DNA from: an uncultured Synergistales bacterium
GTDB lineage: Bacteria; Synergistota; Synergistia; Synergistales; Aminobacteriaceae
Direction of reading: 5' to 3'
Assembly: GCA_905235735.1 (NCBI GenBank)
Contig: CAJOMU010000005.1
Coordinates: 62,001 to 126,000, forward strand
Length of the DNA stretch: 64,000 bases
The notes under the pieces: model-generated
Seen by the model: the letters and a program-made list of their open reading frames with translations, nothing else
What the model was told of the DNA's origin: nothing
The model's database searches: none
Program-made: the position numbers and the translations under genes
Shown here: piece after piece, positions 3,955 through 58,861 of the stretch
How positions within the stretch are numbered: the stretch's first letter is position 1
Layout of the letters: each line of letters opens with the position of its first letter

Positions 3955-6567
3955 ATGGACATGAATAAATTTACGAGAAAGAGTCAGGAGGCAATGCAGA
4001 ACGCTCAATCAATAGCGAGTGAATATAATCATCAGCAGGTTGATGTTGAACATTTATTATCTGCATTACTGAAAGATTCTGAAGGATTAATAGTTCAGCT
4101 TTTAAAACGAATGGATATAAATACATCATCACTATCAAAAATGGTTACTGATGAATTATCGAAACTTCCACGCGTAATAGGAGGAGGAACTGAACAGGGG
4201 ACAGTATATGTTACTCAGAGATTGAACCGTATACTGAATTCCGCAGAAGACAGAGCAAAAGCACTCAAAGATGAATACGTTTCAGTTGAACATATCTTCT
4301 TGGCCATGATAGGAGAAGGGAATAACACTCCATGCGGAAAGATATTTGCACAATTTGGAATAACGGAAGAAAAATTCCTGAAGACATTGAATGATGTGCG
4401 AGGTTCACAAAGGGTACAGAGTGCAGACCCTGAAGCGACATATGAAGCACTCGAAAAATACGGACGTGATTTAGTAGAGGCAGCACGAAACAACAAGTTA
4501 GACCCTGTTATCGGACGAGACGAAGAAATACGCAGAGTTGTACGCATACTCTCACGTAAGACGAAGAATAATCCCGTTCTTATTGGAGATCCTGGTGTTG
4601 GAAAGACAGCAATAGTTGAAGGACTTGCACAGAGAATAGTACGCGGAGATGTTCCCGAAGGATTGAAAGACAGAACAGTTTTTGCTCTCGATATGGGATC
4701 ACTGATTGCGGGTGCGAAGTATCGCGGAGAATTTGAAGAGAGACTGAAGGCTGTACTAAATGAAATTCGGAACAGCGACGGAAGAATCATACTGTTCATT
4801 GATGAGCTTCATACGATTGTTGGAGCAGGAGCAGCAGAAGGTGCAGTTGATGCAGGTAACATGTTAAAGCCCATGCTTGCACGCGGTGAACTTCACTGCA
4901 TAGGCGCAACTACAGTTGATGAATATCGCAAGTATATCGAGAAGGACGCTGCACTTGCACGAAGATTTCAGCCTGTAGATGTTGAACAGCCGACAGTTGA
5001 GGATACGATTTCGATTCTCAGAGGCATTCGTGAAAAATTGCAGGTACATCACGGTGTAGTGATTCGGGATAACGCACTTGTGGCAGCAGCAGTGTTATCG
5101 AACAGGTACATAACGAATCGATTCCTTCCCGACAAGGCAATAGATTTAGTTGATGAAGCATGTGCAATGATACGGACTGAAATAGACTCTCAGCCTTCGG
5201 AACTTGATGCGGCAATGAGGAAAGTTATGCAGTTGAAGATTGAAGAAATATCATTGAAGCATGAAGATGATGAAGCCTCAAAGGAACGTTTGAAAGTATT
5301 GCAGAAGGAACTACAGGAAGCAGAATCGGAAGCAGATACACTAAGAACGCAATACGAGAATGAAAAGAAAGCTATCGGCGATATTCAGAGTTTCAGAAGA
5401 CAGATTGAGGATACGAAAGCAAAAATTGAGAGGGCACAGCTTGAAGGGAACTGGGAACTTGCATCGGAACTTCAGAACAGTGAACTCCCAAGATTGCAGA
5501 GAGTTCTTGCAGGACAGGAAGCAAAGAGGTCTGATATTCTCAAAGGGACTGAAGACAAGAAACTACTGCGTGAGGAAGTAACAGAGGATGAAATAGCTGA
5601 CATCGTAAGCCGATGGACAGGAATCCCTGTAACACGTCTTCTTGAAGGTGAACGCGAGAAACTCCTGAAACTTGATGAGATTCTTCACAGGCGTGTTGTA
5701 GGCCAAGATGAAGCAGTTAATCTAGTTGCTGATGCTGTACTCCGTGCAAGGAGCGGCATAAAAGACCCTAAACGTCCAATAGGCTCATTTATCTTTCTTG
5801 GCCCGACCGGCGTGGGAAAAACGGAACTTGCGAGGACATTAGCAGAGGCATTATTCGACAGTGAAGACAACATGATACGAATCGATATGAGCGAGTACAT
5901 GGAGAAACATTCAGTATCGCGTCTTGTTGGAGCACCTCCGGGATATGTTGGCTATGATGAAGGAGGACAGCTTACAGAGGCAGTTAGACGCAGACCGTAC
6001 AGCGTTATACTGTTCGATGAGATAGAGAAGGCACATTCTGATGTGTTCAACATACTGTTACAGGTACTCGATGACGGAAGAATAACTGATTCGCACGGAC
6101 GTGTTGTAGACTTCAAGAATACGGTAATCATTATGACGAGCAATATCGGTTCACAGTTCCTTATTGAGGGAAATATTGACGGACTAATACCATTAAGCGT
6201 TCGTGAAGAGGTCATGCAGTCATTGAGGGAATCATTCAGGCCGGAATTCTTGAATCGAGTTGATGATATTGTATTCTTCAAGCCATTAACGCAAGATGAA
6301 GTGAAAGACATCGTGAAGATTTTAATCTCTCATTTGCAGGAACGACTTGCAGATCGTCAGATTGAACTGAACTTCTCAGATGAGGCATTAGCTTTCATTG
6401 CTGAGGCAGGATATGATGCGGTGTATGGTGCACGTCCATTGAAGAGGTACATAACGCATAATGTAGAGACGAAACTAGCACGAGCGATGATTGCGGGAGG
6501 TGTTCATGAAAAGACACGTGTAGATGTGAATGTGAAAGCAGGCAATCTTGTTTTCTCGTTCATATAG
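3955..6567 (+). CDS. clpB: ATP-dependent disaggregase ClpB
   Basis: About 870 residues, the full ClpB length. A Clp_N double domain (about 1-145) is followed by AAA domain 1 with Walker A GDPGVGKT near residue 210 and Walker B LFIDELH. A long charged middle coiled coil, about 410-520, separates ClpB from ClpA and ClpC. AAA domain 2 has GPTGVGKT near 618 and ends with the ClpB D2 small domain. It is a cytoplasmic hexamer that, with DnaK, extracts proteins from aggregates. The AAGGGAGA site (3938-3945) abuts the ATG at 3946 but is 9 bases from the ATG at 3955, so the latter is preferred. Its terminator follows directly. Confidence 0.97.
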
Positions 6568-6818: not shown

Positions 6819-8620
6819 ATCGTAACGTTCTCCTTATTGAACCTCCGTATAAGAATAAGTATCCTCCTATGGGATTAATGAAACTGGCTTCATATTTCAG
6901 AGGATGCAATGACAACGTAAGATTCTTCAAGGGAAATTTAAGAGAGTTTGCAGCGAAATTATTATGTGAGGAATTCTTTCACACTTACTGCGATAAATCT
7001 TTCGGACGCTACTTCAAGGCTTTCACTGAGTACATAAAAACAGGCAAACATTCACTGATAGCATCAATCCCGAACTTCTATAATTTCGTGAGAGAAAATG
7101 AGATCACGAATTATCGTCAGAGATTCAGAAACCATGATTACCCTAAGTTTGATATTATAGCAATCACTACGCTTTTCACATTCTGCTGGAAGGAAATTAT
7201 AGATACCATAAACGGAGCTGGAGAATTTATTGATTCATCAGGAAAAATTTTAGTCGGAGGTATAGCTGCTTCTCTTGTACCTGAGGAAATTCAGCATGAG
7301 ACAGGAATAACTCCCATAACAGGAATACTCAACAGACCATTCATGATAGATTCAGACAGCCCTGTGATAATAGACAGCTTGCCTTTAGACTACTCTATAC
7401 TTGAGGAGATTGATTATACATATCCTTCACATGATGCATATTTCGCTTACACTACTAGAGGGTGTATCAGGCGTTGCAACTTTTGTTCAGTTCCATTGCT
7501 TGAACCTAAGTATGAATCCTTCTTCAGTATTCACGAACAGATAGAATATATTGACAAGCATTTTGGACAGCGTAAAGATTTATTACTCATGGATAATAAT
7601 GTTCTGGCCTCTGAACGCTTCGATGAAATTATAGACGAGATAAAATTATGTGGATTCTCTAAAGGAGCATCATATATTCCTCCGAATGAATACGAGATTG
7701 CAATTAAGAACCTCCGTGATGAATATAACACTCGTGCATATGTCACTAGGATAATTGATCTGTATAACATGACAGCAAAGAGAATGACGGATAAAGAAGC
7801 CGAAGAATTTTACATTTACCGCGAGAAAAATTTTCTGCTCTACACAGAGACTGCATCACGCGAATCGATTCTTGAAGCTGATGAATATTTCAGACCGTTG
7901 TACGCAAAATACTTCAGGCCTGTTAGACGTTCAAGATATGTTGATTTCAATCAGGGAATAGATGCAAGACTGATTAACGATTCAAACATGAAGAGACTTG
8001 CGGAGATTAACATACGTCCATTGAGAATAGCATTCGATCATTACGAACAGAGAGAAATATATATAAAAGCTGTAAGGACAGCAGCAAGATGGGGAATAAC
8101 AGACCTGTCTAATTATATGCTGTATAACTTTCATGACATGCCTGATGAGTTGTATCACAGAATGAGAATCAACGTTGAACTTTGCGAGGAGTTAGACGTG
8201 AAGATATATTCATTCCCAATGAAGTATCATCCTGTGAAAGACCCTGAATATTTCAGGAATCGTGATTATATAGGCGAACATTGGAACAGGAAGTTTATAC
8301 GTGCGGTTCAGGCAGTAATGAATTCGACCAAAGGTAAAATCGGACGCGGAATTGAATTTTTCGGTGAGGCATTCGGCCATGACATAGATGAATTTCATGA
8401 CATACTGTATATGCCTGAGACATTTATAATCTACAGGTTCAAGTACAAGGATAATCTGACTGAAGAATGGCGGAAAAAATTTCATGCACTAACTGAAAAT
8501 GAATTGCGGGAAGCAAAAGCAATAATTGAAGCAAATATCTTCACAGATGAAGTGATTCGTAATGCGTCTAGTGAATTTGTTCGTGAAGTCCTGAGATATT
8601 ATTATCTTGAACGCGAATAA
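6815..8620 (+). CDS. Radical SAM protein with N-terminal B12-binding-like region
   Basis: A 601-residue protein. The start (NVLLIEPPY, then YPPMGLMKLASY) resembles the cobalamin-binding-like N-terminal domain of B12-type radical SAM enzymes, but I see no DxHxxG cobalamin motif. The [4Fe-4S]/SAM motif CIRRCNFC (CxxxCxxC) is near residue 216, preceded by YTTRG. The C-terminal half has repeated aromatic and charged stretches and no known accessory domain that I can name. The substrate is unknown. The start overlaps a short upstream frame by ATGA, and a promoter for the next operon begins directly after its stop. Confidence 0.8.
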   Translation: MNRNVLLIEPPYKNKYPPMGLMKLASYFRGCNDNVRFFKGNLREFAAKLLCEEFFHTYCDKSFGRYFKAFTEYIKTGKHSLIASIPNFYNFVRENEITNYRQRFRNHDYPKFDIIAITTLFTFCWKEIIDTINGAGEFIDSSGKILVGGIAASLVPEEIQHETGITPITGILNRPFMIDSDSPVIIDSLPLDYSILEEIDYTYPSHDAYFAYTTRGCIRRCNFCSVPLLEPKYESFFSIHEQIEYIDKHFGQRKDLLLMDNNVLASERFDEIIDEIKLCGFSKGASYIPPNEYEIAIKNLRDEYNTRAYVTRIIDLYNMTAKRMTDKEAEEFYIYREKNFLLYTETASRESILEADEYFRPLYAKYFRPVRRSRYVDFNQGIDARLINDSNMKRLAEINIRPLRIAFDHYEQREIYIKAVRTAARWGITDLSNYMLYNFHDMPDELYHRMRINVELCEELDVKIYSFPMKYHPVKDPEYFRNRDYIGEHWNRKFIRAVQAVMNSTKGKIGRGIEFFGEAFGHDIDEFHDILYMPETFIIYRFKYKDNLTEEWRKKFHALTENELREAKAIIEANIFTDEVIRNASSEFVREVLRYYYLERE

Positions 8621-12238: not shown

Positions 12239-13708
12239 ATGGAAGCTCTAATTGAAATAATTCTTGACGGCTTAAAGAAGTTCGGCGGCGAAATTATTGC
12301 GGCTATTTTGCTTGGTGCAGCGTTCTGGATGTTTCCGAGCCTACGAAAAATATTCAGGAAGAAGAACGCATCAGACGAAGAAGTGAAGCAGCAGCTTGAA
12401 CATATGCAAGAAGTTCTGAAGCAAACATTACAGCAAACTCGAACGAAAGATGATTCAGAGGAGGAAATTCAGAAACAGCTTGAGATTCTCCAGCAGGAAG
12501 AACAACAGCTATTGCGCCTCAAAGAAACTCTGAATCGTCATGACGCAGCATTACAGAATGTTCAGGCTCAGACGGAAGAGGAAAGGAAGCAGAAAGCAGA
12601 TTTACAGAAGCAGCTTGAAGAACAGCGCAGGGAAGAAGAGCGTGTCAAGGCAGAAATTGAACGCAAGCAGGAGGAATTGAGGCGTGAAGAAGCCCGCAAA
12701 GCTGAAGAGGCTCGGAAGAAAGCAGAATTAGAACGCCAGCGTCAGGAGAAGCTCAGGGAGGAAGCGCAGTTAAAGGCGGAGATTGAACGCAGGCAGAGGG
12801 AACTAGAGGAGGCTGAAGCCCGAAAAGCTGATGAAGCTAGGAAAAAAGCAGAGGCACAAAAACAGCTTGAGGAGCAACAGCGTAAAGTTCAGCACATATC
12901 ACAGCCTGCAACACAACTCTATGAACAGGGCAAGAAATATTATGATGCTATGAATTATGATGAGGCATTAAAGTATATTCGCCCAGCCGCTGAGCAGGGA
13001 GACGCTGAGGCACAATACTGGCTGGGAGTTATGTACTACTTCGGCGAGGGGGTCAGGCGGGACTTTTCAGAGGCGGTGAAATGGTATCACAAAGCCGCTG
13101 AGCAGGGACACGTTAAGGCACAATACGATCTGGGACATATGTACAACGCAGGCATAGGTGTCAGGCAGGACAAAGAAGAGGCAGAAAAATGGTATCGCAA
13201 GGCTTTCGAGCAGTATTGCAAAGCCGCTGAGCAGGGAGACGCTGAGGCACAATGCTGGCTGGGAAAGATGTACTACTACGGCTGGGGTGTCAGGCGGGAC
13301 AAAGAAGAGGCAGAAAAATGGTATCGCAAAGCCGCTGAACAGGGATACGCTGAGGCACAAAACAGTCTGGGAGAGATGTATCGCTACGGCGCTGGTGTAA
13401 GTGAGGACTACGGAGAGGCATTGAAATGGTGGAGCAAAGCCGCTAAACAGGGACACGCTAAGGCACAATGGTGGCTGGGATTTATGTACTACCGCGGCTA
13501 TGGTGTCAGGCATGACTACGGAGAGGCAGAGAAATGGTATCGCAAAGCCGCTGAACAGGAATACGTTCGGGCACAATACGATATGGGATATATGTACGAA
13601 TACGGCATGGGTGTAAGGCAGGACAAAGCAGAGGCTCGCAAGTGGTACGAGAAGGCCGCAGCTCAGGGAGATTACTTGGCAATGAAGGCACTAGGAGGCC
13701 TGAAATGA
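12239..13708 (+). CDS. Membrane-anchored coiled-coil protein with Sel1 repeats
   Basis: 489 residues from the ATG at 12239, chosen because GGAGGG stands 6 bases upstream; the 15 in-frame codons before it lack a ribosome site. A membrane segment lies at about 17-36, followed by a long Glu/Lys/Gln/Arg coiled coil (about 45-230) and six to seven Sel1-like repeats of about 36 residues (units like AEAQYWLGVMYYFGEGV, KWYHKAAEQG). Sel1 repeats are alpha/alpha protein-binding scaffolds. One repeat carries a small insertion (KAFEQYCKAAEQ), as expected from recent repeat duplication, and the repeat DNA is highly similar from unit to unit. The partner is unknown. It begins an accessory stretch next to two tRNA genes. 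Confidence 0.85.
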   Translation: MEALIEIILDGLKKFGGEIIAAILLGAAFWMFPSLRKIFRKKNASDEEVKQQLEHMQEVLKQTLQQTRTKDDSEEEIQKQLEILQQEEQQLLRLKETLNRHDAALQNVQAQTEEERKQKADLQKQLEEQRREEERVKAEIERKQEELRREEARKAEEARKKAELERQRQEKLREEAQLKAEIERRQRELEEAEARKADEARKKAEAQKQLEEQQRKVQHISQPATQLYEQGKKYYDAMNYDEALKYIRPAAEQGDAEAQYWLGVMYYFGEGVRRDFSEAVKWYHKAAEQGHVKAQYDLGHMYNAGIGVRQDKEEAEKWYRKAFEQYCKAAEQGDAEAQCWLGKMYYYGWGVRRDKEEAEKWYRKAAEQGYAEAQNSLGEMYRYGAGVSEDYGEALKWWSKAAKQGHAKAQWWLGFMYYRGYGVRHDYGEAEKWYRKAAEQEYVRAQYDMGYMYEYGMGVRQDKAEARKWYEKAAAQGDYLAMKALGGLK

Positions 13709-28553: not shown

Positions 28554-28611
28554 TATGAAAGAGTGTGCTATAATAACTCAAATTTCACAAATCATAAATT
28601 CAGAAGGGAGC

Positions 28612-28639
28612 TTGACAAAATGATTGGACGTTGTATAAT
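28612..28639 (+). promoter_or_regulatory. Promoter with repeat-bearing start region
   Basis: TTGACA (28612-28617), 16-bp spacer, TATAAT (28634-28639): both boxes are consensus. Transcription should begin inside the pentanucleotide repeat that follows. Confidence 0.75.
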
Positions 28640-28640
28640 G

Positions 28641-28665
28641 GTCAAGTCAAGTCAAGTCAAGTCAA
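28641..28665 (+). repeat. Five tandem GTCAA units
   Basis: Perfect (GTCAA)x5 starting one base after the -10 box. Such short tandem repeats can change copy number by slippage; here this would change the start site region and leader length, not a reading frame. Confidence 0.9.
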
Positions 28666-28719
28666 CTATTGTCTTTTAACAGGCATTAATAATCAGCACA
28701 AGATAGACAGAGAAGATAA

Positions 28720-28757
28720 GTGCTCCGTTTGCTTTTATGCATTCGGGGCATTTTTGC
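28720..28757 (+). terminator. Terminator-like hairpin in the leader of the glycan operon
   Basis: TGCTCCG (28721-28727) pairs with CGGGGCA (28744-28750), seven pairs with one G-U, followed by TTTTT. It lies between the promoter and the gene at 28774, so it either attenuates that operon or ends a short RNA of about 110 nt. Confidence 0.55.
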
Positions 28758-28773
28758 GTTCGGGGGCAGTGCT

Positions 28774-29784
28774 ATGACCCTGAAGGAACTCAAAGACAGG
28801 CTCAAGAATAAGCCATTTATGCGTCCTGTTGTATATATCTGGAAAGTAATACGACATCCCAGAAGATTTGTGCGATATGTCATGGCTAGGTTCTTTTTCG
28901 GCGGAATGCTGAAGGCAAAGAAGGATAATGAAGTTTACTTGTTGCTTGGCGGAGCTATAGGAGACAATGTATATGGCCTTGCGTATCTTGATGAGCTTAG
29001 AAAGAAATTCCCTGATAAAAAAATAACGGCATTCAGTACACCATTGAACTCACGCATTCTGAGTACCTATAGAGAGATTGATGACGTAAATCTGTCTGAT
29101 GAAGTTCATGAAAATCTTTGTAAACTTTTGCATCCTGGTATGCCTGCGAATGTGTTATGGCAGTATTCAGCATTTAATATGTTCATACCTATTCCTGCTT
29201 TTTATAGTGATGTTTGGAAGTCTTCAAGGAAAGCTACTCTCTTCAACATGAGACGCATATTTAACCTCACAAATGATGCAGAAATCACATATCACAATCT
29301 CCCCAAAATGCCGGTAAAAGCAATAAAAGACTTTGAACACATCAAGAACAGGGTCGTTATCATTCATCCTTATCCACATTACAGACAGGAATATCATGAA
29401 GATATATATGGCCCAATATGCGAAGAACTAAATCGGAGAAGCTACATTATTTTCACAAACGTTATCAGGGAACAGAAACCCGTAAAAGGTACAGAGGCTT
29501 TACGCTGCAGCATTGAGGAATTATACAGCATAGCTTGTGATGTCCCGCTGATTGTAGGGGGAAGAGGTGGAATACTCGATCTGTTGATACCATCAGGTAT
29601 AAACATGTTTGCTATTTATGAAAGTCATAGTGAATTTGAGTTTTTCCCGTTATATGAATGGAAGAGCAAAGGCAAAATTGAAGAAGTGAAAGTGAAAGTT
29701 TCGGATGAAGATTCGCTGAAATCCTTTTATGAAAGATTCAGATCCTTCCTTGACGAACTCAAACAGGAGGGACGCATATCATGA
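28774..29784 (+). CDS. Glycosyltransferase family 9-like protein
   Basis: 336 residues. The segment LLGGAIGDNVYGLAYLDELRKKFP near residue 55 (core GGAIGDNVYGLAYLDEL) resembles the first Rossmann strand and helix of heptosyltransferases of family GT9, and GGRGGILDLL near 270 resembles their nucleotide-sugar loop. It probably transfers a sugar to an LPS or glycan acceptor at the inner membrane face. The ATG at 28774 follows a weak GGGGGC; a GTG at 28720 lies in the terminator hairpin and is disfavoured. It overlaps the next gene by ATGA, so the two are translationally coupled. Confidence 0.65.
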   Translation: MTLKELKDRLKNKPFMRPVVYIWKVIRHPRRFVRYVMARFFFGGMLKAKKDNEVYLLLGGAIGDNVYGLAYLDELRKKFPDKKITAFSTPLNSRILSTYREIDDVNLSDEVHENLCKLLHPGMPANVLWQYSAFNMFIPIPAFYSDVWKSSRKATLFNMRRIFNLTNDAEITYHNLPKMPVKAIKDFEHIKNRVVIIHPYPHYRQEYHEDIYGPICEELNRRSYIIFTNVIREQKPVKGTEALRCSIEELYSIACDVPLIVGGRGGILDLLIPSGINMFAIYESHSEFEFFPLYEWKSKGKIEEVKVKVSDEDSLKSFYERFRSFLDELKQEGRIS

Positions 29785-52942: not shown

Positions 52943-53034
52943 GTTTTAATTTCTCCGTATCAATATATAATTCAACTAAGATATTATAGACGCACATGTT
53001 AAAATAAAAATACATCAACGAAGGAGTGATGTAC

Positions 53035-53508
53035 ATGGCGATAAAGACAGCAGTAGTAATAGGAGGCAGCAACGGAATCGGTCTTGCGGTTTCACGTAAA
53101 TTTATCGACAGAGGATATGCCGTAAAGATTCTCGGAATTCATGAGCCAGACAGAAATGTGATTCATGGATCTGAATGTGAGTATGTGTATCATGATCTGC
53201 GTTACCCAAATGAAGAATATCTGAAATCTCTTGCACAGGATGAAAACATCGACGTGTTGTTCATTTCATCAGGCATAGGAAGGTTTTCTGATTTTCAGTA
53301 TTTTCATACGGCAGAGATTGAGAAAACATTTCTGATTGATACGGTCTCGCCAGTAAAAATCATAAGAGAATTTTTCTCCATAACACATAACACGTACAAA
53401 CTTTTACTGCGGTGTTATGGGATCAATCACAGGACTAATAACTACACCTTCGGGAGCTTTATATTCAGCGGCAAAAGCAGGAATATGCAGATTCATCGAG
53501 AGCGTTAA
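53035..53508 (+). pseudogene. N-terminal part of a frameshifted SDR/cytidylyltransferase gene
   Basis: From the ATG at 53035 (AAGGAG 8 bases ahead; two earlier in-frame starts are too close) the frame encodes the start of a short-chain dehydrogenase: AVVIGGSNGIG cofactor loop and VLFISSGIG. Similarity stops near 53395, where the homologous sequence continues in the +1 frame as FYCGVMGSITG. The remaining 35 codons in the original frame are not SDR-like and end at 53508. One missing or extra base near 53370-53405 explains this. Confidence 0.75.
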
Positions 53509-54205
53509 CATTGAACTTGAAGCCAACGGAAGCCAGAACAGAATTTTATGTGTTGCACCTGGTTTCATTGACGGAACGAAATTTTATGATCCGTCAGCAG
53601 AAAATAACCTCAGCAAGACATTACCAATCGCAGAAGAAATTATAACGCATCTTTTGAATCATGATACACTTTACATTCCCTTCTACAACGATACATACAA
53701 GAGCGTAATCGAACGCTATCACAAAGACCCTCACGAATTCGGACTATCAAGCTACGAATACAAGAAGAACACAGGACGAATCAGAAATGAAAGCAGAATC
53801 GTAATCGGTTACATGTCAGGAACGTTTGACCTCTTCCACATAGGACATTTGAATCTCATCAGACGAGCAAAAGCTCAATGCGATTATCTTGTTGTAGGAG
53901 TTCATGCAAGCGGTGCCAGAAAAGGCAAAGAGACATTCATTCCTCTCGAAGAACGCAAGACTATGGTTGAATCATGCAGATACGTCGATAAAGTCATAGA
54001 TGCGCCTGCAGAAGACTCTGACGCATGGCCTGAATGGCATTACAAGAAGCTGTTCGTTGGAAGTGACTACAAAGGCTCAGAGAGGTTCAACAGATACGAG
54101 GAGATATTCAAGAATACAGATGTTGAGATAGTATATTTCCCATATACGAAGAATACCAGCAGTACACAGATTCGCAAGGCAATCAACGCAATAATAAATT
54201 CGTGA
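53417..54205 (+). CDS. SDR C-terminal part fused to a TagD-like cytidylyltransferase
   Basis: 262 residues from the ATG at 53417. The first 120 are the C-terminal half of the SDR with the catalytic YSAAK; they belong with the preceding fragment. After about residue 135 comes a nucleotidyltransferase of the glycerol-3-phosphate cytidylyltransferase group: GTFDLFHIGH, RKTMVESCRYVDKV and STQIRKA. The nucleotidyltransferase part is intact and may still be produced from an internal start. The original bifunctional protein would reduce a keto-sugar or polyol precursor and activate the product with CTP, as TarJ and TarI do with opposite order. hisB follows. Confidence 0.72.
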   Translation: MGSITGLITTPSGALYSAAKAGICRFIESVNIELEANGSQNRILCVAPGFIDGTKFYDPSAENNLSKTLPIAEEIITHLLNHDTLYIPFYNDTYKSVIERYHKDPHEFGLSSYEYKKNTGRIRNESRIVIGYMSGTFDLFHIGHLNLIRRAKAQCDYLVVGVHASGARKGKETFIPLEERKTMVESCRYVDKVIDAPAEDSDAWPEWHYKKLFVGSDYKGSERFNRYEEIFKNTDVEIVYFPYTKNTSSTQIRKAINAIINS

Positions 54206-56136: not shown

Positions 56137-57222
56137 CTATTCTACACCGTCAGAATCCTCACGCATCATTTCAATCAACGTTTTTCCAGTTGAAGCTAAT
56201 GGCCATGTATTATATGCTCCAAGAACTGCCTTCATTTGCACGTCATTTTCTCCGCCTGTAACATTTGAACGCCACAGTGCTACTTCCTGCGAACCATATA
56301 TCATAAAGCCTGGCACACCTGAACCAGGAACATTCCTATGAGAAACAAGCACTGTCTTCGTATCATTCAGAATCCCCATGATTCTCAGCCATATATCATC
56401 GTTTCTGAATGATAATTTTTTCATGGCCTCAAGGTTGAACACTTCATCATTCACACTGTGAGGGGGATACAATACACCGCTTACTCCTGAAGCCATGTAT
56501 CGATGTGAAGCATGTCCTATAATACCGCCGTTATAATTGAATGTATTACATGGTGCCATTGTTCCATCGGGCATAAATTTAATCTCCTCAACACGCATTG
56601 CATGAACACAATCTGGCTTCCTCTGATAAGAATCGTACAAACATTCAATAACATCACTATCATATATCCAGTCATCATCGAACGTGATCACAAGATCTTC
56701 AGGATACTCTTTGAATGCATAGAAATATTTCGTGTGTGGGCCTAAATCTTCACGGAATTCAATATCAACTCCGCAGGCCTTCACTTCATCAAACATATCA
56801 GGCAGCTTCTTGTCGGGGAATTTTTCAGTCCCCAGCCACAAAACAATTTTATCCGGCTTCATCGTCTGATTCAGAATCGAGGCAATAACATACGGGACAA
56901 TATTTATTCTCGCAGGATAACTCGTTAATGATGCAATGATTCTTCGGTCTCTGTGTTCTGTCGTGTTCAATCCACAACGATTGAACCTCACGAAGTGCTT
57001 ATACCTCTGCCACCTTACGAATAATACAAATTCTCTCACTACTCTTAATAGCCAATGAAGTACTCTTAATACCCAATGAACAGGATAATATATGAACGCC
57101 TTACTCTTAGCCCATGCTTTTAAACGCGCAATTATGGGCTGTTTGCTGTTTGCTGTTTGCTGTTTGCTGTTTGCTGTTTGCTGTTTGCTGTTTGCTGTTT
57201 GCATTATGATTCGATTTTTCAC
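56137..57222 (-). CDS. Glycosyltransferase with heptanucleotide repeat at its start
   Basis: About 361 residues. The enzyme domain starts near residue 85: IIASLTSYPARI, later VIASILNQTMKP and the metal-binding VITFDDDWIYD, as in GT-A transferases of LPS or capsule clusters. Residues before this are a basic amphipathic region. At the very start the coding DNA has nine tandem 7-bp units, encoding three repeats of QTANSKQ. Since 7 is not a multiple of 3, loss or gain of a unit would shift the frame. GTG at 57222 fits AAAGGA best; TTG at 57231 and ATG at 57204 are alternatives. The gene is 25 bases downstream of rho and likely cotranscribed with it. In its present copy number the frame is open. 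Confidence 0.8.
   Translation of the reverse strand: MKNRIIMQTANSKQQTANSKQQTANSKQPIIARLKAWAKSKAFIYYPVHWVLRVLHWLLRVVREFVLFVRWQRYKHFVRFNRCGLNTTEHRDRRIIASLTSYPARINIVPYVIASILNQTMKPDKIVLWLGTEKFPDKKLPDMFDEVKACGVDIEFREDLGPHTKYFYAFKEYPEDLVITFDDDWIYDSDVIECLYDSYQRKPDCVHAMRVEEIKFMPDGTMAPCNTFNYNGGIIGHASHRYMASGVSGVLYPPHSVNDEVFNLEAMKKLSFRNDDIWLRIMGILNDTKTVLVSHRNVPGSGVPGFMIYGSQEVALWRSNVTGGENDVQMKAVLGAYNTWPLASTGKTLIEMMREDSDGVE
57138..57203 (-). repeat. Nine tandem GCTGTTT units
   Basis: Perfect (GCTGTTT)x9 from 57138 to 57200 plus a partial GC (plus-strand notation), inside the first codons of the glycosyltransferase gene. Typical of slipped-strand contingency loci. Confidence 0.97.
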
Positions 57223-57247
57223 TTCTGTCAAGTCCTTTCTGCTGATT

Positions 57248-58861
57248 TTATGCCAATTTAATTGAGTTCAGAAATTCAGCGTTATTATCTGTCTGCTTCA
57301 GCTTATCGAGAATCAGATTCAATGCACCTGCCTCATCAACTCCTGCAATACGTTTCCGCAATATCCATAAGCGTTTGAGATCATCATCGGGCATCAATAA
57401 CTCTTCGCGTCTCGTTCCCGATTTCGTGATGTCAATCGCAGGGAATATTCTCTGTTCCGCAAGTTTACGCGACAGATGAAGCTCCATATTGCCCGTGCCT
57501 TTGAACTCCTCATAAATCACATCGTCCATTCGTGAACCTGTATCAGTCAGTGCAGTCCCGATTATAGTCAGACTTCCGCCCTCCTCAAAATTTCTCGCAG
57601 CACCGAAAAATCTCTTTGGGAAATACAATCCTGAAGGGTCAAGTCCTCCCGATAATGTTCTTCCTGAAGGCGGAACAGTCAAGTTTGACGCTCTTGCAAG
57701 CCTCGTTATTGAATCCAAAAGAATCACTACATCACGCTTGGCCTCAACAAGTCTCTTTGCTTTCTCAAGTGCAAGATTCGCAACACGTATATGTTCATCT
57801 GCCGGCCTGTCGAATGTCGATGCAATAACCTCACCGTCAATTGAACGCGCAATATCAGTAACTTCTTCGGGACGTTCATCAATCAGAAGTGCCATTATGA
57901 TAATGTCGGGTGAATTCGATGCTATTGCCTGTGCTATGCGTTTCAGGAGGGTAGTCTTTCCTGCCTTCGGAGGCGATACGATTAATGCCCTCTGACCGAA
58001 TCCAATCGGAGCGAACATGTCTACAAGTCTCGTTGCTATGTCTTTTGTATCATATTCGAGGCTCAATCTTCTGTCAGGGAATATCGGTGTCAATTGTGCG
58101 AACATTGGCCTTCGTCTTGAGTGTTCAGGGTCAGTGAAATTCACCGTCTCAACTCTAAGCAATGCCTCGTAATGTTCCTGATCTCGCGGCGGACGAATCA
58201 ATCCCCAAATCACATCGCCGTTGCGTAATCCGAACCTCCGTATCTGTGATGATGAAAGATATACATCACTGTCAGTCGGCAGCATTCCCTTCGGACGCAG
58301 AAAACCAAAGTTCTCCGGCAATATCTCAAGAGTTCCTCCTCCAAAACGGTAATTCATACTCTCTGCCTGTGCACGCAGCAATGAGATTATGAGATCATCC
58401 TTGCGCATTGTTACTGGGGCATTCACATTGAGTTCTTTTGCCAGTCTACGCAGGTCAGGTGCACTCTTCGTTGATAGCATTGCATAAGTGTATTTAGGTT
58501 TCGGGTGCTGAATCATTTCACGTCTGCCTGAACGAAGATTATGCGGTACAGTTCTTATCTCTTCATCTTCCTGTTCTGATTCTGGGTCAAGCTCTACATC
58601 TGCATACTCTGAATCGTCATTCATATTCACGTCAGGTTTATCGCGTCCTGTATTCTGTATCTTTTCAATTTCCTCGCGCATTTTCTCTCTCACTTCTTCC
58701 GGTTCTGGCTGAAGCATAATCTCTTCAGGTTCTGCCGAATTTCGTTTTACTGCCGTCTTTTGGGTAGTTGCTGTTGTCTTACGTGTACGTGTCTTCTTTT
58801 GTACTTCCTGTTTCATTGATTCTGTTTCTGATTCTATTTCTGATGCTTTTCTTCTTGGCAT
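57248..58861 (-). CDS. rho: Transcription termination factor Rho
   Basis: 537 residues, longer than the usual 420 because of an acidic/basic low-complexity N-terminal extension (about 1-115). Then come the Rho N-terminal helical domain, the RNA-binding cold-shock domain (YRFGGGTLEILPENFGFLR core EILPENFGFLR) and the RecA-like ATPase with SPPKAGKTTLLKRIA and LLIDERPEEVTD, and the R-loop. It terminates transcription as a hexamer. Extended N-termini of Rho are known from several phyla. It shares its strand with the repeat-bearing glycosyltransferase gene just downstream. Confidence 0.97.
   Translation of the reverse strand: MPRRKASEIESETESMKQEVQKKTRTRKTTATTQKTAVKRNSAEPEEIMLQPEPEEVREKMREEIEKIQNTGRDKPDVNMNDDSEYADVELDPESEQEDEEIRTVPHNLRSGRREMIQHPKPKYTYAMLSTKSAPDLRRLAKELNVNAPVTMRKDDLIISLLRAQAESMNYRFGGGTLEILPENFGFLRPKGMLPTDSDVYLSSSQIRRFGLRNGDVIWGLIRPPRDQEHYEALLRVETVNFTDPEHSRRRPMFAQLTPIFPDRRLSLEYDTKDIATRLVDMFAPIGFGQRALIVSPPKAGKTTLLKRIAQAIASNSPDIIIMALLIDERPEEVTDIARSIDGEVIASTFDRPADEHIRVANLALEKAKRLVEAKRDVVILLDSITRLARASNLTVPPSGRTLSGGLDPSGLYFPKRFFGAARNFEEGGSLTIIGTALTDTGSRMDDVIYEEFKGTGNMELHLSRKLAEQRIFPAIDITKSGTRREELLMPDDDLKRLWILRKRIAGVDEAGALNLILDKLKQTDNNAEFLNSIKLA

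Follow-up and report, generated by a model that had tools for sequence, protein, structure and literature searches.

A heptanucleotide array in a glycosyltransferase gene behind rho very probably acts as a frame-switching contingency locus and belongs to a genus-wide cassette family

Nine tandem copies of a 7-bp unit lie in the first codons of a glycosyltransferase gene in the window, by which we mean the whole stretch of 64,000 nucleotides analysed here. We asked whether this array switches the gene on and off through the reading frame, what the promoter-like element superimposed on the start of the gene contributes, and whether the locus stands alone. On the minus strand, the end of rho at 57248 is followed by the Shine-Dalgarno sequence (SD), TTGACA, GTG, CATAAT, the array and the body of the glycosyltransferase gene down to 56137:

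57248-58861, minus strand: rho, directly upstream of the glycosyltransferase gene and the presumed source of a read-through transcript
57233-57238, minus strand: SD AAAGGA of the glycosyltransferase gene, in the same place at other arrays
57226-57231, minus strand: TTGACA, the -35 element of P2, the promoter superimposed on the gene start
57220-57222, minus strand: likely start codon GTG (ATG at the equivalent site in homologous cassettes)
57203-57208, minus strand: -10 element CATAAT of P2, 17 bp past TTGACA and immediately 5' of the array
57138-57200, minus strand: tandem array (AAACAGC)x9, reading (GCTGTTT) on the plus strand and translated as QTANSKQ repeats
56137-57222, minus strand: glycosyltransferase of 361 aa with a predicted KfiA-like GT-A fold, presently in frame (ON)

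All nine AAACAGC units, from 57200 to 57138, are perfect, and TRF reported a period of 7 with 9.3 copies and 100% matches at 57138-57202. The first-pass annotation, which had placed nine units directly after the possible starts of a gene behind rho, with TTGACA and CATAAT at a 17-bp spacing overlapping the start, described the locus correctly in each of these respects. The GTG at 57222 shares its frame with two further possible starts, a TTG at 57231 and an ATG where the -10 box ends, and the next in-frame start lies approximately 34 codons downstream. In an unbiased scan of 464 kb of the genome, pure tandem repeats numbered only 12, of which 9 had a period of 5 or 7, and the window array is beyond chance.

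Within the open reading frame, the array is a pure tandem repeat located at the 5' end, downstream of the start codon; its unit is not divisible by 3, and the other two frames have early stops. In silico, nine units gave an open frame of 361 aa from the GTG, eight units led to a stop at 27 aa and ten units to a stop at 40 aa, which bears out the earlier claims that a change of one unit shifts the frame and that nine units represent the ON state. In the wider range, 6 and 12 units also gave the full protein while 5, 7, 8, 10, 11 and 13 units resulted in a stop after 20-47 residues. Because only 6, 9 and 12 units leave the frame open among the 5-13 tested, the present nine-unit state is ON. The orthologous rho-glycosyltransferase locus carries no array in G032 (L010), G028 (L014) and G010 (L015), which counts against the model in so far as the gene can do without the switch; the copies in G028 and G010 contain internal stops.

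The window protein had no Pfam match above the cut-off, with GT2 at E=0.013. Its family profile matches KfiA with E=6e-4, and its AlphaFold model (pLDDT 86.5) has its best PDB match in 5z8b (KfiA, E=8.5e-9), the structure matches being KfiA, heparosan synthase and SpsA. An Asp triad, DDD (D176-D178), is invariant, and the protein thus combines a GT-A fold with an acidic metal-binding motif. The protein is, as its model indicates, a GT-A glycosyltransferase, in agreement with the identity first proposed for it. It shares the GT-A fold and the invariant triad with the heparosan N-acetylglucosaminyltransferase KfiA, its best match by both profile and structure, but the two proteins have only 17% identity, extra N-terminal helices are found in the window protein, and the likeness is one of fold, not of assigned substrate. 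The N-terminal QTANSKQ repeat lies outside the conserved glycosyltransferase domain and has low model confidence.

The best evidence for the frame-shift switch that the first-pass annotation proposed came from outside the window. A search for the layout AAAGGA N1-4 TTGACA N0-4 RTG, which specified neither the array nor the -10 element, returned 163 matches in 43 genomes of the genus compared with 4 for the reversed pattern. The genus is a group of Fretibacterium-like Synergistaceae, with Fretibacterium sp. and Synergistaceae MAGs as named relatives, and several related MAGs originate from goat, red deer and roe deer. The homologous cassettes have a common layout of SD, TTGACA, ATG or GTG, TATAAT and array, with other 7-bp units, such as AACCAGC, GAACAGC, CGACAGC and AACGCCA, in the same place. 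The fetched regions contained 139 distinct cassettes, of which 97 carry an array of 2.9 or more units. The period is 7 in 63 arrays, 5 in 27, 8 in 5 and 4 in 2, and none is divisible by 3 (chance 8e-18). The 49 distinct units contain no sense-strand stop triplet in any register, whereas antisense stops occur in 31 of the 97 arrays; the stop-free sense units are explained by the need for ribosomes to read the arrays in this direction in all three frames. Immediately after the array, an AT-rich motif, CCATAATTRTGC, is found at 89 cassettes (at 57137-57122 on the minus strand in the window) and occurs in all three frames; it is real but modest, with 6.9 bits versus approximately 4.2 bits in shuffles. 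Elsewhere in the order the cassette was found near chance level, the one exception being genome G138 from a different genus within the family. Its two loci L236 and L238 have SD-TTGACA-ATG, a poor -10 and then long tetranucleotide arrays, and may be a sister form of the cassette.

The 89 downstream genes included GT2 (11), GT1/GT4 (9), acyltransferase 3 (7), GT8 (5), pyruvyl transferase (5), GT11 (4), MBOAT (4), DUF4422 (3), bacterial sugar transferase (3) and LicD (2), and, by these assignments, the targets are enzymes that assemble and decorate surface polysaccharides. In G029, a GT8 and a GT2 gene have identical cassettes in front of them (L080, L085), and so do a DUF4422 and an unrelated gene (L087, L081); in G036, one cassette is found before both pyruvyltransferases and a GT11 gene. 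These cases suggest that cassette modules move between genes, but shared k-mers causing chimeric assembly could also explain the identical cassettes. At one locus (L224, G000:C4:20001-40000), two tandem GT4-like genes have a cassette each, with arrays at 5856-5892 (5.3 units, OFF) and 7142-7164 (3.3 units, ON).

Two wirings connect the array to its gene. In the fused class (n = 64), the array runs directly into an intact reading frame of at least 100 codons; 26 of these genes are ON and 38 are out of frame with the start. Past the array, the median distance to a stop is 5 and 10.5 codons in the two other frames, the first internal start lies a median of 29 codons into the gene, and therefore the OFF state should be tight. 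In the leader class (n = 27), a short open frame follows the array, and a separate start for the gene is mostly found 46-234 nt further on. The one long frame of the leader stops between -15 and +20 nt of the gene start in 24 of the 27 loci, often as ATGA or TGATG, compared with 1 of 27 for the second-longest frame, and the leader is in this coupling frame (ON) at 6 of the 27. The general feature of the class is a folded gene start, with a mean minimum free energy of -16.7 versus -8.3 kcal/mol for 120 ordinary starts in the same genome (p=3e-11). Transcription attenuation was considered as the general leader mechanism and rejected, because terminator-like hairpins with T runs are found at some leader-class loci only. 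Such a leader would constitute a second, coupled route to a phase-variable gene, one that leaves the protein unaltered.

The window has one cassette of each wiring, the fused one at 57138-57222 and a leader cassette at 28602-28774. The latter, like the genus-wide system, had been missed by the first-pass annotation, for all that it was right about the locus behind rho. The features of this second cassette are:

28602-28640, plus strand: SD AGAAGGGAG, TTGACA at 28613, ATG at 28620 and TATAAT at 28634
28641-28665, plus strand: (GTCAA)x5 array in a short leader reading frame, in the OFF register, with the leader stop after 19 aa
28718-28755, plus strand: terminator-like hairpin with a T run, between leader and gene
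28774-29784, plus strand: leader-coupled gene, glycosyltransferase-like by inspection, with no Pfam match

In the OFF state, with five units, 94 nt separate the end of the leader from the gene. With four or seven units, in silico, the leader crosses the terminator-like hairpin and its TGA overlaps the ATG of the gene (ATGA).

Taking both classes together, 32 of 91 genes (35%) are ON and 59 OFF, which is not different from one third and is the fraction that random switching would predict. ON and OFF registers are both found with intact coding sequence, across relatives and paralogues. A homologous 8-bp array (GGCTTCAG) before acyltransferases of relatives has 3 or 9 units where the gene is ON and 4, 4, 5 or 7 units where it is OFF, and one copy has decayed until a single unit is left. 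Between the paralogous loci L079 (4.3 units) and L089 (5.3 units), whose local cassettes are identical, the difference is one unit, although ancestry and gene conversion, rather than ongoing slippage, could account for part of such differences among paralogues. All length comparisons are among relatives and paralogues, with one genome per species; genome contig searches for a second strain of the same species gave relatives, and a flank search of viral contigs gave no match. By our own tally, approximately 14 cassettes have a contig end no more than approximately 70 nt away, in every case on the side of the array, as expected if assemblies break at length-variable or repeated arrays. Both mutS and mutL are present in the genus. 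Loops of 5-8 nt are generally poor substrates of mismatch repair, and their evasion of repair would account for the unit lengths that are preferred.

The case for frame-switching phase variation is strong. The window array is very probably a contingency switch that turns its gene on and off through the frame, as one copy of a genus-wide cassette family with two wirings, in which SD, TTGACA, start codon and TATAAT precede an array of 5-, 7- or 8-bp units. Slipped-strand mispairing would add or remove 7-bp units in the cell, and a ribosome starting at the GTG or ATG 5' of the array would be moved into or out of the glycosyltransferase frame, so that the enzyme, and presumably the surface glycan it builds, would switch at random. 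In the fused wiring, as at the window glycosyltransferase, the array is predicted to form part of the protein. In the leader wiring, as at 28602-28774, the leader would be translated up to the hairpin-masked gene start in one frame only, and we infer that the leader ribosome opens this start. Anatomy, frame logic, recurrence in the genus, stop-free units, an ON fraction of about one third, folded gene starts and target classes are established at the level of sequence.

The model of a contingency switch gives P2 no role, which we count against it. In the window, TTGACA-N17-CATAAT overlaps the start of the glycosyltransferase gene. All nine arrays of period 5 or 7 in the 464 kb begin 0-1 nt past a TTGACA-N16-18-TATAAT element with 9-12 of 12 matches, and the three other pure repeats are without one. 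When arrays were chosen only by a 5-bp unit, 22 of 23 had an exact TTGACA and at least 10 of 12 matches (0.8% at random), and the array starts 0-3 nt past a near-consensus -10 in 77 of the 97 cassettes. The same 464 kb contain 18 near-consensus promoters with an exact TTGACA; 8 of these are followed by an array, all with an SD and a start codon, while among the other 10 an SD and start codon are present at only one, itself a decayed array. Predicted P2 transcripts would start inside the array and carry no start codon. A start codon beyond the array for these transcripts was rejected because of the distance to the first internal start given above. The likelier source of translatable mRNA is an extended -10 (TGNTATAAT), found 20-40 nt before the SD in about half of the cassettes; behind rho, read-through can serve this purpose. 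A transcript starting inside the repeat had been put forward as an alternative to the frame switch. The promoter is indeed conserved with the arrays, but its transcript would lack a start codon for the gene, and the choice is not an either/or one.

Candidate roles of P2 are a mutator promoter, level control, or an inherited part of a copied module. The first would be an add-on to the frame switch, in which slippage increases when RNA polymerase opens the array at P2, so that transcription start and switching are linked. The almost invariable co-occurrence of P2 and array, though P2 cannot express the fused genes, points in this direction, as does the pilE G4 promoter, where an RNA start inside an unstable element is required for pilin variation (PMC3547852). 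However, copy number shows no correlation with the quality of the -10 match (rho=-0.03) and the G036 lineage keeps long arrays despite a decayed -10, and we regard the proposal as less likely than not. Somewhat doubtful, likewise, is the broader idea of a transferable cassette, in which a near-consensus promoter lies over the ribosome-binding site and start, RNA polymerase opens the array and drives slippage, and the same module has been copied before unrelated surface-glycan genes across the genus.

Level control would make P2 a working promoter with the array in the 5' end of its transcript, the repeat number tuning transcript level or stability rather than the frame. The tight abutment of array and -10 and the presence of P2 at all nine 5- and 7-bp arrays would fit such a rheostat, and the P2 promoter of hmw likewise abuts a heptanucleotide array (PMC8262952). 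A rheostat, however, would need neither periods that avoid multiples of 3 nor units free of stops on one strand, and in the fused genes its transcript would have no start codon until well into the protein; this explanation is improbable. That the array is a harmless low-complexity N-terminal extension, growing and shrinking without function, is barely credible: the position of the QTANSKQ stretch outside the conserved domain and its low model confidence would allow it, but frame-selected coding repeats should have periods divisible by 3, as 0 of 97 do, 65% are out of frame with the genes intact, and the array-bearing genes are surface-glycan genes.

In principle the proposed switch is a familiar one; the phylum is new, and the module, with its two wirings, is unusual and highly uniform. 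The lipopolysaccharide genes lic2A, lgtC and lic3A of H. influenzae carry tetranucleotide repeats (PMC2651432) and share with the present cassettes pure short repeats at the 5' end of surface-glycan genes, a unit not divisible by 3, and frame switching. In contrast to them, the units here measure 5, 7 or 8 bp, almost every locus has a unit of its own (49 distinct), a near-consensus promoter lies over the start codon before each array, a leader class exists, and the phylum is Synergistota. With hmw1A and hmw2A of H. influenzae, the cassettes share the position of a 7-bp array immediately past a -10 box (that of P2 in hmw); there, however, the array sits in the 5' untranslated region, with the ribosome-binding site after it, and its length works as a rheostat (PMC8262952), whereas here the ribosome-binding site and start precede the array and the frame matters, and the window array has no in-frame start close behind it. 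The promoter of the G4-associated small RNA at pilE of N. gonorrhoeae likewise has its start site inside a variable, unstable DNA element, but it acts in gene conversion via a G-quadruplex, as demonstrated experimentally (PMC3547852), while the start site here is deduced from position and has no quadruplex. Among the papers searched, none joined Fretibacterium with phase variation.

Extrapolation from 9 arrays in 464 kb gives roughly 40 independent switches per genome, with which a clonal population could present very many surface glycans; such diversity bears on escape from phages, on host immunity and on how strains coexist in the rumen and gut. The uniform design with a promoter over the start codon makes it possible to test whether transcription initiation inside a repeat sets the switching rate.

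Two further observations concern other parts of the window. At 53026-54205 (plus strand), a frame encoding a short-chain dehydrogenase and a cytidylyltransferase is split by a frameshift near 53417-53500, as a broken gene or an assembly error. At 12593-13635, imperfect 108-bp tandem repeats apparently encode Sel1-like protein repeats.
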